Source: Psychromonas aquimarina ATCC BAA-1526 (GTDB lineage: Bacteria; Pseudomonadota; Gammaproteobacteria; Enterobacterales; Psychromonadaceae). Taken from it: DNA of 64,000 bases. The first letter of the stretch is position 1; every line of letters starts with the position of its first letter. Both the position numbers and the translations under genes were made by a program. The notes beneath the pieces were generated by a model that saw only the letters and a program-made list of their open reading frames with translations, had not been told where the DNA came from and made no database searches. Of the stretch, positions 1,869-38,371 are shown piece after piece. The stretch is taken from the NCBI RefSeq assembly GCF_000428725.1, contig NZ_AUAM01000013.1:62001-126000 (forward strand). The letters run 5' to 3'.

Positions 1869-2216
1869 TTTACCTCTCTTTATCTATGATTCATTAAAAA
1901 CCAGCATAAGGATATAAAAGGAAAATACAATAATAATACCAATCTGAATAAGCATCTGATTTTTTATGCTGGTTAAAATCAATTCTATCTTCGTTATTAA
2001 TTTCGTAATTAGAATAACTAGTTACATCAATTAATACCTTGCTAGTATCGATTTTTCCTGCGCCTAAACTAACCATTTACTTAATCAGTTTGGTATAAGC
2101 TGCAGTTTTGTTAAATCAGGGCCGGGCAGCAGAGGGGGCTTAAGGAGTAACGGATGCTGAAATAAGCGCATAAACTTTAAGCACTTATTTCAGCTGATTT
2201 AAACTGCGTTTTCAGT
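1869..2216. other. 348-base gap between rluC and the HAD gene
   Basis: The gap holds the structured repeat at 1935-2097 and, nearer rluC, an 11-bp hairpin GCTGAAATAAG/CTTATTTCAGC (2156-2166 with 2184-2194, 17-base loop). The hairpin has no T-run on either strand, so it is not a convincing terminator. I see no gene. Confidence 0.6.
1935..2097. repeat. Structured intergenic repeat, copy 1 (163 bp)
   Basis: The ends are an imperfect inverted repeat, ATACCAATCTGAATAAG against ATACCAAACTGATTAAG on the other strand. Inside are an ATCTTCGTT block, an ATTAAT/ATTAAT inner stem (1996-2001 with 2030-2035), and the loop text TTAGAATAACTAG shared with copy 3. Copies 2 and 3 are at 29783-30047 and 38195-38371. 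A 60-codon reading frame inside it is not considered a gene. Confidence 0.65.
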
Positions 2217-3532: not shown

Positions 3533-6500
3533 ATGAAAAGAATGTTAATTAATGCAACTCAAGCAGAAGAGCTGCGTGTTGCCCTTGTAGACGGGCAGAA
3601 ACTTTACGACCTGGACATTGAAAGCCCGGGTCATGAACAAAAAAAAGCAAATATCTACAAAGGCAAAATCACCCGTGTTGAACCAAGTTTAGAAGCCGCA
3701 TTTGTTGATTACGGCGCTGAACGTCACGGATTCCTTCCACTTAAAGAGATTGCCCGCACTTACTTCCCTGAAGGTTACTCCTTTAAAGGCCGCCCTAATA
3801 TCAAAGACGTGATTAAAGAAGGCCAGGAAGTTATTATCCAGATTGAAAAAGAGGAGCGCGGTAACAAAGGCGCGGCTTTAACCACCTTTATCAGTCTTGC
3901 CGGCAGCTACTTAGTATTAATGCCTAATAACCCTCGTGCAGGCGGTATCTCCCGTCGTATCGAAGGTGATGAACGTACTCAGTTAAAAGAAGCACTTAGC
4001 CATCTGAAACTGCCTAACGGTATGGGTTTAATTGTACGTACTGCTGGTGTTGGTAAAACACCGGAAGAACTAGAATGGGATCTTAATGTTTTAGTTAATC
4101 ATTGGCAGGCAATTGATGAAGCTTCACGCTCAAAACCGGCGCCCTTCTTAATTCACCGTGAAAGCAACGTTATTGTACGTTCTATCCGTGATTATCTACG
4201 CCGTGATATTGGTGAAATTGTTATCGACCACGCCAAAACATTTGAACTTGCTAAAAACCATATCTCCATGGTTCGCCCTGATTATGTTAACCGTCTTAAA
4301 TTATACCAGGGTGAAATCCCGTTATTCACTCACTACCAGGTAGAAAGCCAGATTGAATCAGCTTTCCAGCGTGAAGTACGTTTACCGTCAGGCGGCTCAA
4401 TTGTTATTGATCCCACTGAAGCGTTAACCTCAATCGATATTAACTCTGCCCGTGCTACACGCGGCGGTGATATCGAAGAAACTGCATTTAATACCAACCT
4501 TGAAGCAGCGGAAGAAATTGCCCGTCAGTTACGCCTGCGTGATTTAGGCGGCCTGGTTGTTATCGACTTTATCGATATGACACCGGCTCGTCACCAGCGT
4601 GAAGTTGAAAACCGCATGCGTGAATCCGTACGTCAGGACAGAGCCCGCATTCAGTTAGGCCGCATCTCTCGTTTCGGTCTGATGGAAATGTCACGCCAGC
4701 GTATTCGTCCTTCTCTAGGTGAATCAGCATCTCGTGTCTGTCCGCGCTGTCATGGCCAGGGTACTATTCGTGATAATGAATCCCTTGCATTAGCCATCCT
4801 GCGTCTGATTGAAGAGGAAGGATTAAAAGAAAATACAGTACAGATTCAAGCAACTGTACCTGTTGCTGTTGCCGCATATCTGCTTAATGAAAAACGTAAA
4901 GCAGTAGCTAAAATCGAAAAACGCCATAGCTGTGAAGTGTATATCATTCCAAATGCTAATCTTCTAACACCGCACTTCGAAATCAAACGTACTCGTAAAG
5001 ACGGTAAAGAAGACATTAACTATGATGCGCTTGAGAAGCAGCATACGGTTTATGTTCCAAATGTCATCAAAGATGAAAATAAAAAAGATTCAGATCCTGT
5101 ATTAACCGGTTTTTCCAGCCCGAAAAAACAGGTAGAGGCTAAAGCGAAGCCGAGCAAAGCCGAAAGCAAACAAGTACAGCAGCCTGAATCGTCATTCGTT
5201 TCTCGTCTGTTCTCTGCTATCTCATCGCTGTTCTCAGATACAAAAGAGGTTCAAGCAGAAGAGAAAAAGCCTGAAGAGAAAAAAGTAGAACGCAGTAAAA
5301 ACACCCAGCGTCAGCGCAGCAGCAGCCGTAACCGCAACCGTAACCGTAATCAGAACCGAGCAGACAAAAACAGCTCTGAAACAAAAGGTAACGAACGTAA
5401 AGCGAATACACGTAAAGACAATGAACGTGTTAAAAAGCAGGATCGCAGTCAGCAGCCGCATAGCAAAAAAGACAACGAAGAAGTAGTTGCAGTTCGTCGT
5501 AAACGCAGAAACATGCGCAAAAAAGTACGTGTGCAGAATACTGAACAAGCGCTAGAAAATGCAGCAGCACCAGTTACTGAACCTGTAGTACAAGCAGTTG
5601 AACAGCCTGTACAAGCTAAGAAAAAAACGCGTAAAGCAGAGCCTAAAGCAGCAGTGAAACAAGCAGCAGCCGCTGCGCAGAAAGCTGAAACAAAAGCAAA
5701 ACAAAGCGAAACTGAACAGGTAGACAGCGAAGCTAAAGTAGCAACTGGTGATGAATATACACCGGTTGCAATTCCAAGCCGCCGTTCTCGCTACCTGCGC
5801 AACAACGGTCAGCGTAAGAAAAAGAACAACGTTTCTGAAGATAATATTGAAAGCACAGTACCGGCTAGTCAGCTGGATCCTGTCTGCAGCCGTTATCCAG
5901 AAACTGAAATTAATGCAGAAGCACCGTTCGAACCCGTTGCAGATCAGGCAATGGCAGAAATGGCTAACGCATTAAATGAAATTGAGCAGAAAACACGCAG
6001 TGAAGCACCTGTTGCCAGTGAAATCAGTACTATTGATAATACAGTTGATACTCACCAGGCTGCGCAGCAGCTTCAGGAAAGTATTTCTGAAGAGGTCATT
6101 GAACAGGCTACACAGATATTACCTGAAACAGCAGCTGAAGCACCTGTTGCTGAAACGCCTGTAGTTGAAACGCCTGTTGCTGAAACGCCTGTAGTTGAAG
6201 CACCTGTTGTTGAAGCACCTGTTGCTGAAACACCAGTAGTTGAAACACCAGTAGTGGAGACGCCTGTTGCTGAAGCACCAGTAGTTGAAGCACCAGTAGT
6301 TGAAACACCAGTAGTTGAAGCACCAGTAGTTGAAGCACCTGTAGTTGAAGCACCTGTAGTTGAAGCACCTGTAGTTGAAGCTGCGGTAGTTGAAGCTGCG
6401 GTAGTTGAAGCTGCGGTAGTTGAAGCTGCGGTAGTTGAAGCTGCGGTAGTTGAAACACCTGTTGTAGAAACAGCGGCGACAGCGAAAAAATTCGGAACAG

Positions 6501-6688
6501 TGAGCGCAGTAACACAGTATGCCGCTTCACCAATGACCAGAACGGTCAGTGATGCGCTGGACCTTAGTGCTGAAATTGTAATTATCGGTGCAACTGAACG
6601 AGCACCTATTACAAAATCAACACAACAGGCCGGCAGCCGTTTTGCCACAAATCACTCCAGCAGTGAAACGGTAAAAGCAGCCTTGTAA
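3533..6688 (+). CDS. rne: Ribonuclease E
   Basis: RNase E is the endonuclease and scaffold of the RNA degradosome. The N-terminal half (about 1-510) follows E. coli closely: S1 domain (about 35-120), the two catalytic aspartates in SIDINSARA (D302) and VIDFIDM, and the Zn-link CPRCHGQG (Cys403, Cys406). An amphipathic stretch, [13 protein letters not shown] (near 553-566), fits the membrane-targeting helix. Arg- and Lys-rich segments (near 600-670) fit the RNA-binding region. Residues 870-979 are 22 pentapeptides of the type APVVE. The extreme C-terminus keeps SPMTR and ATNHSS, resembling the PNPase-binding end. The length of 1051 is close to the E. coli 1061. A strong terminator follows. Confidence 0.98.
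6140..6469 (+). repeat. 15-bp in-frame tandem repeats in rne
   Basis: Twenty-two consecutive 15-base units encode [A/T][P/A]V[V/A]E. Five of them (6380-6454) are identical at every base (gctgcggtagttgaa), which suggests recent slippage or unequal crossing-over. The array also opens long, meaningless frames on the opposite strand. Confidence 0.95.
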
Positions 6689-29772: not shown

Positions 29773-29782
29773 CATTAACAAA

Positions 29783-30047
29783 TATACCCGTTACCAATCA
29801 AAATGCATTTATCAGTCGCTAGCTCGGACACCAAGACAAGGCGCAACATAATGACAATGGCTAGCCCTTATCGAATGTTGCAACGTAGTATTGGTTTTCG
29901 AGCTAGTGACCCACGGGGCAAGCCGTGATGTAAACATCTTCGTTGTTGTGAAGTCTCGATTTAACCCGTTAGATCTTCATCTTCACGCCTAGAATCTGTT
30001 CACCTCTCGACTTGCTGATTTTTGCATCTTGATTGATAACGGGTATA
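29783..30047. repeat. Structured intergenic repeat, copy 2 (265 bp)
   Basis: The outer arms are TATACCCGTTACCAATCAAA and, on the other strand, TATACCCGTTATCAATCAAG, extending to 23 of 25 matching bases. Inside are GGGGCAAG, ACATCTTCGTTGTT, an inner stem GTGAAG/CTTCAC (29948-29953 with 29981-29986), GCCTAGAATCT and CTTGCTGATT. It carries about 90 bases more on the left side than copy 3. Confidence 0.75.
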
Positions 30048-30058
30048 TAAACATGTAT

Positions 30059-38194: not shown

Positions 38195-38371
38195 TATACC
38201 CAAACCACCTCAAAATACAGATTCAGAGCTTCTCCCATAGGGCAAGACGATAAACGATAATCTTCGTTGTTAAAAGGTTTTGATTTAGAATAACTAGATC
38301 ATCAACCTTCTGCCTAGAATCTCATCATTTACCGGCTTGCTGATTCCTGCACTTTGAGGTGGCTTGGGTAT
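38195..38371. repeat. Structured intergenic repeat, copy 3 (177 bp)
   Basis: The outer arms are TATACCCAAACCACCTCAAA and, on the other strand, ATACCCAAGCCACCTCAAAG. Inside are GGGCAAG, ATAATCTTCGTTGTT, an inner stem AAGGTT/AACCTT (38274-38279 with 38304-38309), GCCTAGAATCT and CTTGCTGATT. The core words are shared with copy 2, but the arm sequences are different. Confidence 0.75.

Follow-up and report, generated by a model that had tools for sequence, protein, structure and literature searches.

The 64,000-nucleotide stretch of DNA analysed here (the window), which lies on contig C10 of a 5.53 Mb genome assembled in 141 contigs, carries three intergenic copies of a structured repeat. Copy 1 is located between a HAD-type hydrolase gene and rluC, copy 2, with which this study is mainly concerned, is placed directly behind pqiB, and the positions of the three copies and of their parts are collected in Table 1. 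An earlier note on this DNA had described copy 2 as a structured element whose arms pair within the copy yet differ from those of other copies, and both statements are borne out: the copy 2 arms are 34 nt long and 85% complementary, the whole element has a calculated fold of −103.1 kcal/mol against −60.5 ± 4.6 kcal/mol for its shuffled versions (z −9.2), and copy 3 also folds better than its shuffles (z −6.2). The inner stems listed in that note, GTGAAG/CTTCAC in copy 2, AAGGTT/AACCTT in copy 3 and ATTAAT/ATTAAT in copy 1, are present in the sequence as described, as are the core words that it saw kept between copies 2 and 3. Elsewhere in the window, a 15-nt tandem repeat of 20 overlapping steps occupies positions 6054–6518 within an open reading frame of 1051 aa (3533–6688).

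Table 1. Positions in the window of the three copies and their parts; bit scores are those of the core covariance model R1
Feature	Coordinates	Strand	Description
Copy 1	1937..2095	+	159 nt, TACCAATCTG...CAGTTTGGTA; 3-bp flank TAA on both sides (IS630 type, TNA target duplication)
Copy 1 core hairpin	1981..2049	+	R1 66.0 bits
Copy 2	29785..30045	+	261-nt element TACCCG...CGGGTA with TA flank on each side; two inner hairpins; pqiB/rsmF gap
Copy 2 left outer arm including flank	29782..29815	+	From 29783, 20 of 26 identities with an IS630 left end (L473, congener G009)
Copy 2 hairpin A	29815..29910	-	Inverted core copy, diverged; read by eye
Copy 2 hairpin B (core hairpin)	29933..30000	+	R1 54.1 bits
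Copy 2 right outer arm including flank	30015..30048	+	Reverse complement from 30047, 23 of 26 identities with the same IS630 end (L473, G009)
Copy 3	38197..38370	+	174 nt, one hairpin, TACCCA...TGGGTA; flanks TA and TC; gap between phoR and a Nif3-like gene
Copy 3 core hairpin	38257..38325	+	R1 72.0 bits

The covariance model of the core hairpin used throughout (R1, 25 rows) matches the three copies in a scan of the window with E values of 1.2e-21, 1.3e-19 and 1.3e-15 and gives one additional match at chance level (E 0.67); all three window copies are among the 25 rows on which R1 was trained. Hairpin A of copy 2 itself gives no match to R1, but R1 does match hairpin A in relatives of this element (e.g., L316, L417, L362 and L375).

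The family to which these copies belong fits the description of MITEs (short transposons without a transposase), being made up of small non-coding mobile elements of marine bacteria. Its members have inverted ends and no transposase gene, are present in many copies, and are mostly 159–283 nt long, with shorter derivatives in addition. About a hundred elements beyond the three in the window were found in the same genome. Blast gives 93 rows there with copy 2 as the query, 45 with copy 3 and 42 with copy 1, where one element often corresponds to several rows and some rows are pieces or arms that match the opposite strand, and a genome-wide search with a covariance model, which the earlier note had suggested as a check, likewise found many copies, with at least 115 R1 matches at E ≤ 1 (150 of 2484 candidates scored). 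The arm types within this one genome include TACCCGTTA, TACCCAAACC, TACCCATG, TACCAAATCC, GGGCCTG, GGGGCTG and GTACCTTG, and very similar elements of the copy 1 type are present in P. ossibalaenae.

Empty sites and flanking duplications can be observed directly. Congener G006 lacks an element at the copy 2 site, with flanks consistent with TACCC..GGGTA having been inserted and TA duplicated, and in G018 the same gap is occupied by another element that has different arms and the same core. The copy 3 gap is empty in both G006 and G018, but there the flanks have diverged too far for the duplication to be established. Among F1 copies (the copy 1 type, from several species) 57 of 87 have equal 3-bp flanks, mostly TTA and TAA, compared with 22.7 expected by shuffling; the F2/F3 and GGG types mostly have TA on both sides, a case in which the shuffles do not distinguish duplication of TA from end letters that are simply fixed. 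According to the earlier note, the genes on the two sides of every copy are read in the same direction, which is true of the three window copies but is not general: of 40 scored copies, 25 have such neighbours, 8 are in convergent and 7 in divergent gaps. The 40 were drawn from 90 loci; 7 others lacked two usable flanks, and the remainder duplicated a place already counted or showed no core to the search pattern.

Several members of the family are altered in structure. Elements of about 84 nt (L026, L027 and L030, on contigs C13, C2 and C2 of G000, and similar ones) are F2 derivatives that by eye have the internal CCCGTTA as one end, and each may be half an element that moved with an 11-bp end. 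Insertions of 64–65 nt are present in F2 copies at C39:10513-10576 (L015), C24:29088-29151 (L017) and C1:10051-10115 (L019/L021) of G000; those in L015 and L017 lie at the same place in hairpin A and have similar letters, and that in L019/L021 lies in the second half. L496 (G000 C2:189741-189796) is a 56-nt element that consists of GGGCCTG arms only, without the core, and L357 (G018 C68) is a chimera with a CATG-subfamily left arm and an F2 right arm, which no longer match one another.

By sequence comparison the arms are transposon ends, a possibility absent from the earlier note; matching ends accompany DDE transposases of the IS630, IS5 and IS982 groups. The IS630 elements of the genus have ends TATACCCGTCATC.. 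or TATACCCATCATA.. and are of two types. Type 1 elements are about 1090–1110 bp long with TACCAATTCCGATAA-type ends, and of the nine whose flanks are both readable six have equal TNA flanks (L433, L435, L438, L451, L452 and L454) and three do not (L436, L453 and L456). Type 2 is represented by L462 and L473, whose left ends are TATACCCATCATACTTCAAGATG and TATACCCGTCATCATTCAAGATG and whose transposases of 341 and 347 aa match NF033545 with E values of 2.8e-65 and 1.1e-66. IS630 elements with intact transposases and ends that match those of the MITEs are thus directly observed in both types (L433, L435 and L475 of type 1, with two overlapping frames, and L462 and L473 of type 2, with one frame), all of them in other genomes of the genus. 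A whole active IS630 donor was not seen in the genome of the window, where each of the three matches is either truncated by the end of a contig or a remnant; two contigs of this genome begin with pieces of an IS630 transposase that run into an F1 right arm.

That the arms match IS630 ends (for copy 2, see Table 1) identifies the covarying arms as transposon ends. The CATG arm has 25 of 28 identities with the L462 end, and the fit is poorer for the left arm of copy 3 with L462 (17 of 26) and for the copy 1 arms with the type 1 end (16 of 24 and 13 of 24). The ends of L462 and L473 differ from each other in the same stretch of the arm in which the MITE subfamilies differ. The right ends of the type 2 IS630 elements are unlike either MITE arm, and the MITEs are therefore not plain internal deletions. 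The transposons' own ends covary too: in L456 (G017 C45) they have changed together to TACCAAAGGAATTTAATT, with its near-complement at the other end, where relatives have TACCAATTCC. In L446 (G010 C11) an F1-type MITE is nested in the transposase gene of an IS630 remnant.

MITEs with other arms correspond to other insertion sequences. The GGG arms match the ends of an IS5 element (L500, which matches NF033580 with an E value of 1.3e-78 and has ends GGGCGTGTTGATCTTT and GGACGTGTTGATCTTT), and in the genome of the window an IS5-like C-terminus (L492) runs, by eye, into GGGGCTGTTGATCTTT. The ACCTGA arms match an IS982 element in both ends and flank type (L427; NF033520, E 2e-71; ends ACCTGAGATCGG and ACCTCAGCTCGGG): Paraglaciecola MITEs L112, L122 and L183 have ACCTGA arms like those of L427, and by eye 6-bp TANNTA flanks are present in MITEs and IS alike, in a comparison that involves a single IS982 element and an IS and MITEs from different genera. 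The transposases of IS5 and IS982 are themselves distantly related (each matches the other's model at 1e-13 to 1e-14), so that the one deep divide runs between IS630 and the other two. No IS with ends that match the GGGAACC or GTACC arms was found.

What MITEs with the ends of IS630 (both types), IS5 and IS982 have in common is the core, which reads CNNNGTT, stem, TAGAAYNACTA, stem', GCCTNG, and in which the loop AAYNA and an internal loop are conserved. A second model (R2), built from 14 cores with TATACC arms only, recovers, at E ≤ 0.01, the core of 41 of the 42 loci that were treated as other types (the exception is L328); these 42 had been fetched by the core pattern or by R1 and include some without an assigned arm type (L483, L490, L509 and others), so this is a test of likeness and not of frequency. 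By our estimate the core pattern alone should give far fewer than one chance match in the collection, and the second, inverted core, which the pattern did not demand, was then found by R1; the pattern applied to genome contigs required core letters, and conservation of these letters in L107–L202 thus partly reflects how the loci were chosen. Long elements contain two inverted cores whose start-to-start distance falls between 102 and 107 nt for 46 of the 49 distinct pairs counted (the three exceptions measure 94 and 99, both from shortened minus-strand matches, and 114), and the gap between the two core matches is 33–39 nt in 48 of the 49. These values exclude L488, which is a partial match, L146, whose two cores are 160 nt apart, and L144, a neighbour in plus-then-minus order. 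In B-DNA, about 105 nt corresponds to ten helical turns.

The core was not seen inside any IS. Thirty loci from the IS630 search gave four core matches, three of which lie outside the IS by their coordinates and one in the nested F1 MITE of L446 (above), 18 further loci gave two, in an F2 element (L426) and outside the IS of its locus (L476), and there is no match to the core model in L427, L492 or L500. A scan of a subset of the loci for matching ends 500–3000 bases apart, as an autonomous element with the core would have, gave L449, an IS630 that has no core match.

Covariation within the core is seen directly when many copies are compared. The alignment of 139 distinct cores, which was fitted to the model, has a covariation score of 0.570 compared with a shuffled mean of 0.154 (0 of 500 shuffles reach 0.570) and with at most 0.157 for slid versions, 88.0% of its cells are paired compared with 62.5% when shuffled, and it has 638 double-changed cells compared with 230.6. 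Two other measures are near the shuffled values, namely pairs with a double change (14 versus 12.9; 23 of 500) and further pair types (52 versus 52.2; 315 of 500); in the other three of the five the cores lie well above both kinds of control. In a 25-row MAFFT alignment that was not fitted to the model, double changes are present in 12 of 18 pairs.

Why has the pairing persisted? The earlier note had offered two answers, selection for a fold or a copying mechanism that renews one arm from the other. A constraint on pairing is supported by the covariation across genera and by more matched double changes per branch than slid partners have, but routine renewal of one arm from the other is not, given fixed left/right mismatches and one-sided departures. 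Renewal would mean that template switching or gene conversion copies arm onto arm within a copy, without any selection, and template switching is a documented route to matched arm changes (PMC8794818). In order to count changes by branch we used a tree of F2/F3 elements, for which 152 loci matched copy 2, 95 of them with both ends and 80 distinct; after removal of L001, which duplicates the reference, and of the chimera L357, 79 rows were left. Double Watson-Crick changes on the same branch number 11 in the outer arms, 44 in hairpin A and 24 in hairpin B, as opposed to 0–2 per category for slid partners, which begin with fewer Watson-Crick cells. This is what renewal would give, as is the finding that both arms depart together more often than the expected doubles in the mixed families F1 (112 versus 68), F3 (30 versus 11), GGGCC (20 versus 4.5) and GGGGC (13 versus 4.4), although that excess arises because mixed subfamilies differ on both arms. 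Six of the 28 positions of the F2 arms, however, keep a left/right mismatch in 21–25 of 25 copies, which indicates that renewal of one arm from its partner is not routine. Departures from the consensus of the F2 arms number 14, and 12 of them affect a single arm whereas 2 are matched; the chimera L357 keeps its unmatched arms; and on terminal branches shorter than 0.02 there are 26 broken stem pairs and 0 compensated ones. Copying of arm onto arm is thus very unlikely to be what keeps the arms matched.

The same tree contains information on the fate of inserted copies. Terminal branches have 42 cases in which both sides of a pair underwent Watson-Crick changes on the same branch and 314 broken pairs, and internal branches have 37 and 111, respectively (Fisher p 0.0004); among terminal branches those longer than 0.02 have 302 broken and 43 compensated pairs (Fisher p 0.057 against the shorter ones above), with 11 compensated versus 120 broken at lengths of 0.02–0.08. 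These counts are suggestive of largely neutral decay of inserted copies, with selection acting on lineages that are still moving; a version of this idea with neutral decay alone fits poorly with the compensated pairs that moderately short branches also have (L301, L349, L351, L418 and others).

Selection on a fold could act on RNA or on DNA. The core could be a functional RNA (a regulator, terminator or processing hairpin) that is carried on MITEs and kept for host use in transcripts, and the strong covariation, the conserved AAYNA loop and internal loop, and the position of copy 2 directly behind pqiB are all in keeping with this. So is a bias among stem changes in the tree, where on the CNAGGC strand of both hairpins G.T is favoured over A.C at paired sites (236 versus 127) and not at unpaired sites (103 versus 118); these are raw counts, and as rates the values are 1.66 and 1.59 for paired and 1.20 and 0.82 for unpaired sites, between which base composition differs. 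The CNAGGC strand is not the same strand in the two hairpins, however, and the bias therefore fits folding of either single strand and not of one transcript; the two cores of a long element are on opposite strands, so no one transcript reads both in one sense. In the core alignment two columns have T.G in the core strand (in 137 of 139 cores and in 56), which is A.C on the other strand, and in the remaining columns, with 1835 Watson-Crick cells, G.T does not outnumber A.C (37 versus 57). The orientation of the core is independent of the flanking genes (12 same, 13 opposite), broken pairs accumulate on young branches, and Rfam has no family at its gathering score in the window and no relevant match at E ≤ 1 in a set of nine loci, one of which (L134) has two microRNA-model matches far below gathering. 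We consider a host RNA quite unlikely; since orientation is unrelated to genes and the exchanges are mostly Watson-Crick, single-stranded or cruciform DNA is favoured, and we have moderate confidence that the core fold would be needed in such a form during transposition.

A further explanation gives the core no function: one ancient MITE lineage could have had its ends replaced repeatedly by recombination with local MITEs, and the core would simply have been carried along. Chimera L357 exists, and the architecture is inherited as a block, as the narrow start-to-start distances (above) indicate. A passive sequence should nonetheless lose its pairing and spacing, and the stems of the core change base by base yet remain paired in a core that is found in at least 76 genera, which makes a functionless core unlikely.

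Our preferred reading, to which we give a probability of roughly three in four, is that copy 2 is one of a family of MITEs that are mobilised in trans by transposases encoded elsewhere and that have a conserved core hairpin. Copies 2 and 3 would use the ends of a TATACCC-type IS630 with a TA target and copy 1 those of the second IS630 type with a TNA target, and IS elements with matching ends would move the MITEs in trans. The outer arms would covary because both ends must match a transposase whose own ends diversify. The inside of these elements is not simply a remnant of one IS, as the core hairpin, which may be present once or twice in inverted order at a distance of about 105 nt, is common to IS5- and IS982-ended MITEs as well. 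The fold of the core would act on DNA in transposition, where the hairpin may aid pick-up of the element, pairing of its ends or copying, inserted copies would decay largely neutrally, and recombination would pass the core between end types. More tentatively, and with considerable doubt on our part, the core may be a portable, structure-recognised DNA module that is older than the ends that surround it and gives MITEs of the IS630, IS5 and IS982 types a shared advantage, for example by folding on the lagging strand or on an excised strand so that the ends meet or a host factor is recruited.

R1 at E ≤ 1e-5 matches at least 94 of 369 genomes sampled from the class (76 of 272 genera) and, in a draw from the phylum, at least 90 of 398 genomes, of which 50 are outside the class and 45 of these 50 are in one family; at most 13 candidates were scored per genome, and several single matches near the threshold are possibly due to chance. 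L509 (G519 C88:4500-4568), which is outside the class, has its core in a stretch of 70% G+C. Viral carriage was considered with a single exact core pattern, which matched 16 viral contigs, but the stretches printed held no element and all 16 matches were taken as chance. We found no description of the core in topical searches of open-access papers, in the text of which five core strings did not occur, and neither passages of the MITE review PMC10969869 nor those of the Thiomargarita paper PMC4853749 mention it.

The elements described here are like the bacterial MITEs of the IS630 family (Tc1/mariner-like) in being short and intergenic, in lacking a transposase, in having IS630-like inverted ends and a TA or TNA target, and in being present in many copies; they differ from them in that the core hairpin is also found in MITEs with IS5 and IS982 ends. 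MITEs are usually explained as leftovers of a single parent transposon, and their interior is usually thought to be common only to their own parent or family. In the present case a single folded core is retained by elements whose ends are borrowed from three transposase families, and it is present in roughly one in four of the genomes sampled from the class (94 of 369). REP/BIME, ERIC, RUP, BOX and Correia elements are also small palindromic intergenic repeats of bacteria, and by their usual descriptions they are set apart by different sequence and size. Integron attC sites and the ends of IS200/IS605 elements are mobile DNA in which the single-strand fold matters more than the letters; the present elements would resemble these, as generally described, in the precedence of fold over letters, whereas they have the ends and flanks of DDE transposons. 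A role for the fold, if there is one, would open a new way to study how non-autonomous elements spread and how they come to switch transposase, and the core family supplies many natural variants with which DNA-level and RNA-level constraints on pairing can be tested. In the CORE-SINEs of eukaryotes a conserved central domain persists and the parts that are tied to the mobilising machinery get exchanged; the elements analysed here are alike in their kept centre and exchanged ends, but they are bacterial DNA transposons and their core is a covarying hairpin. Were the core indeed portable, bacteria would have their own equivalent of the CORE-SINE domain, in the form of a selfish core that switches from one transposase to another in the course of time.
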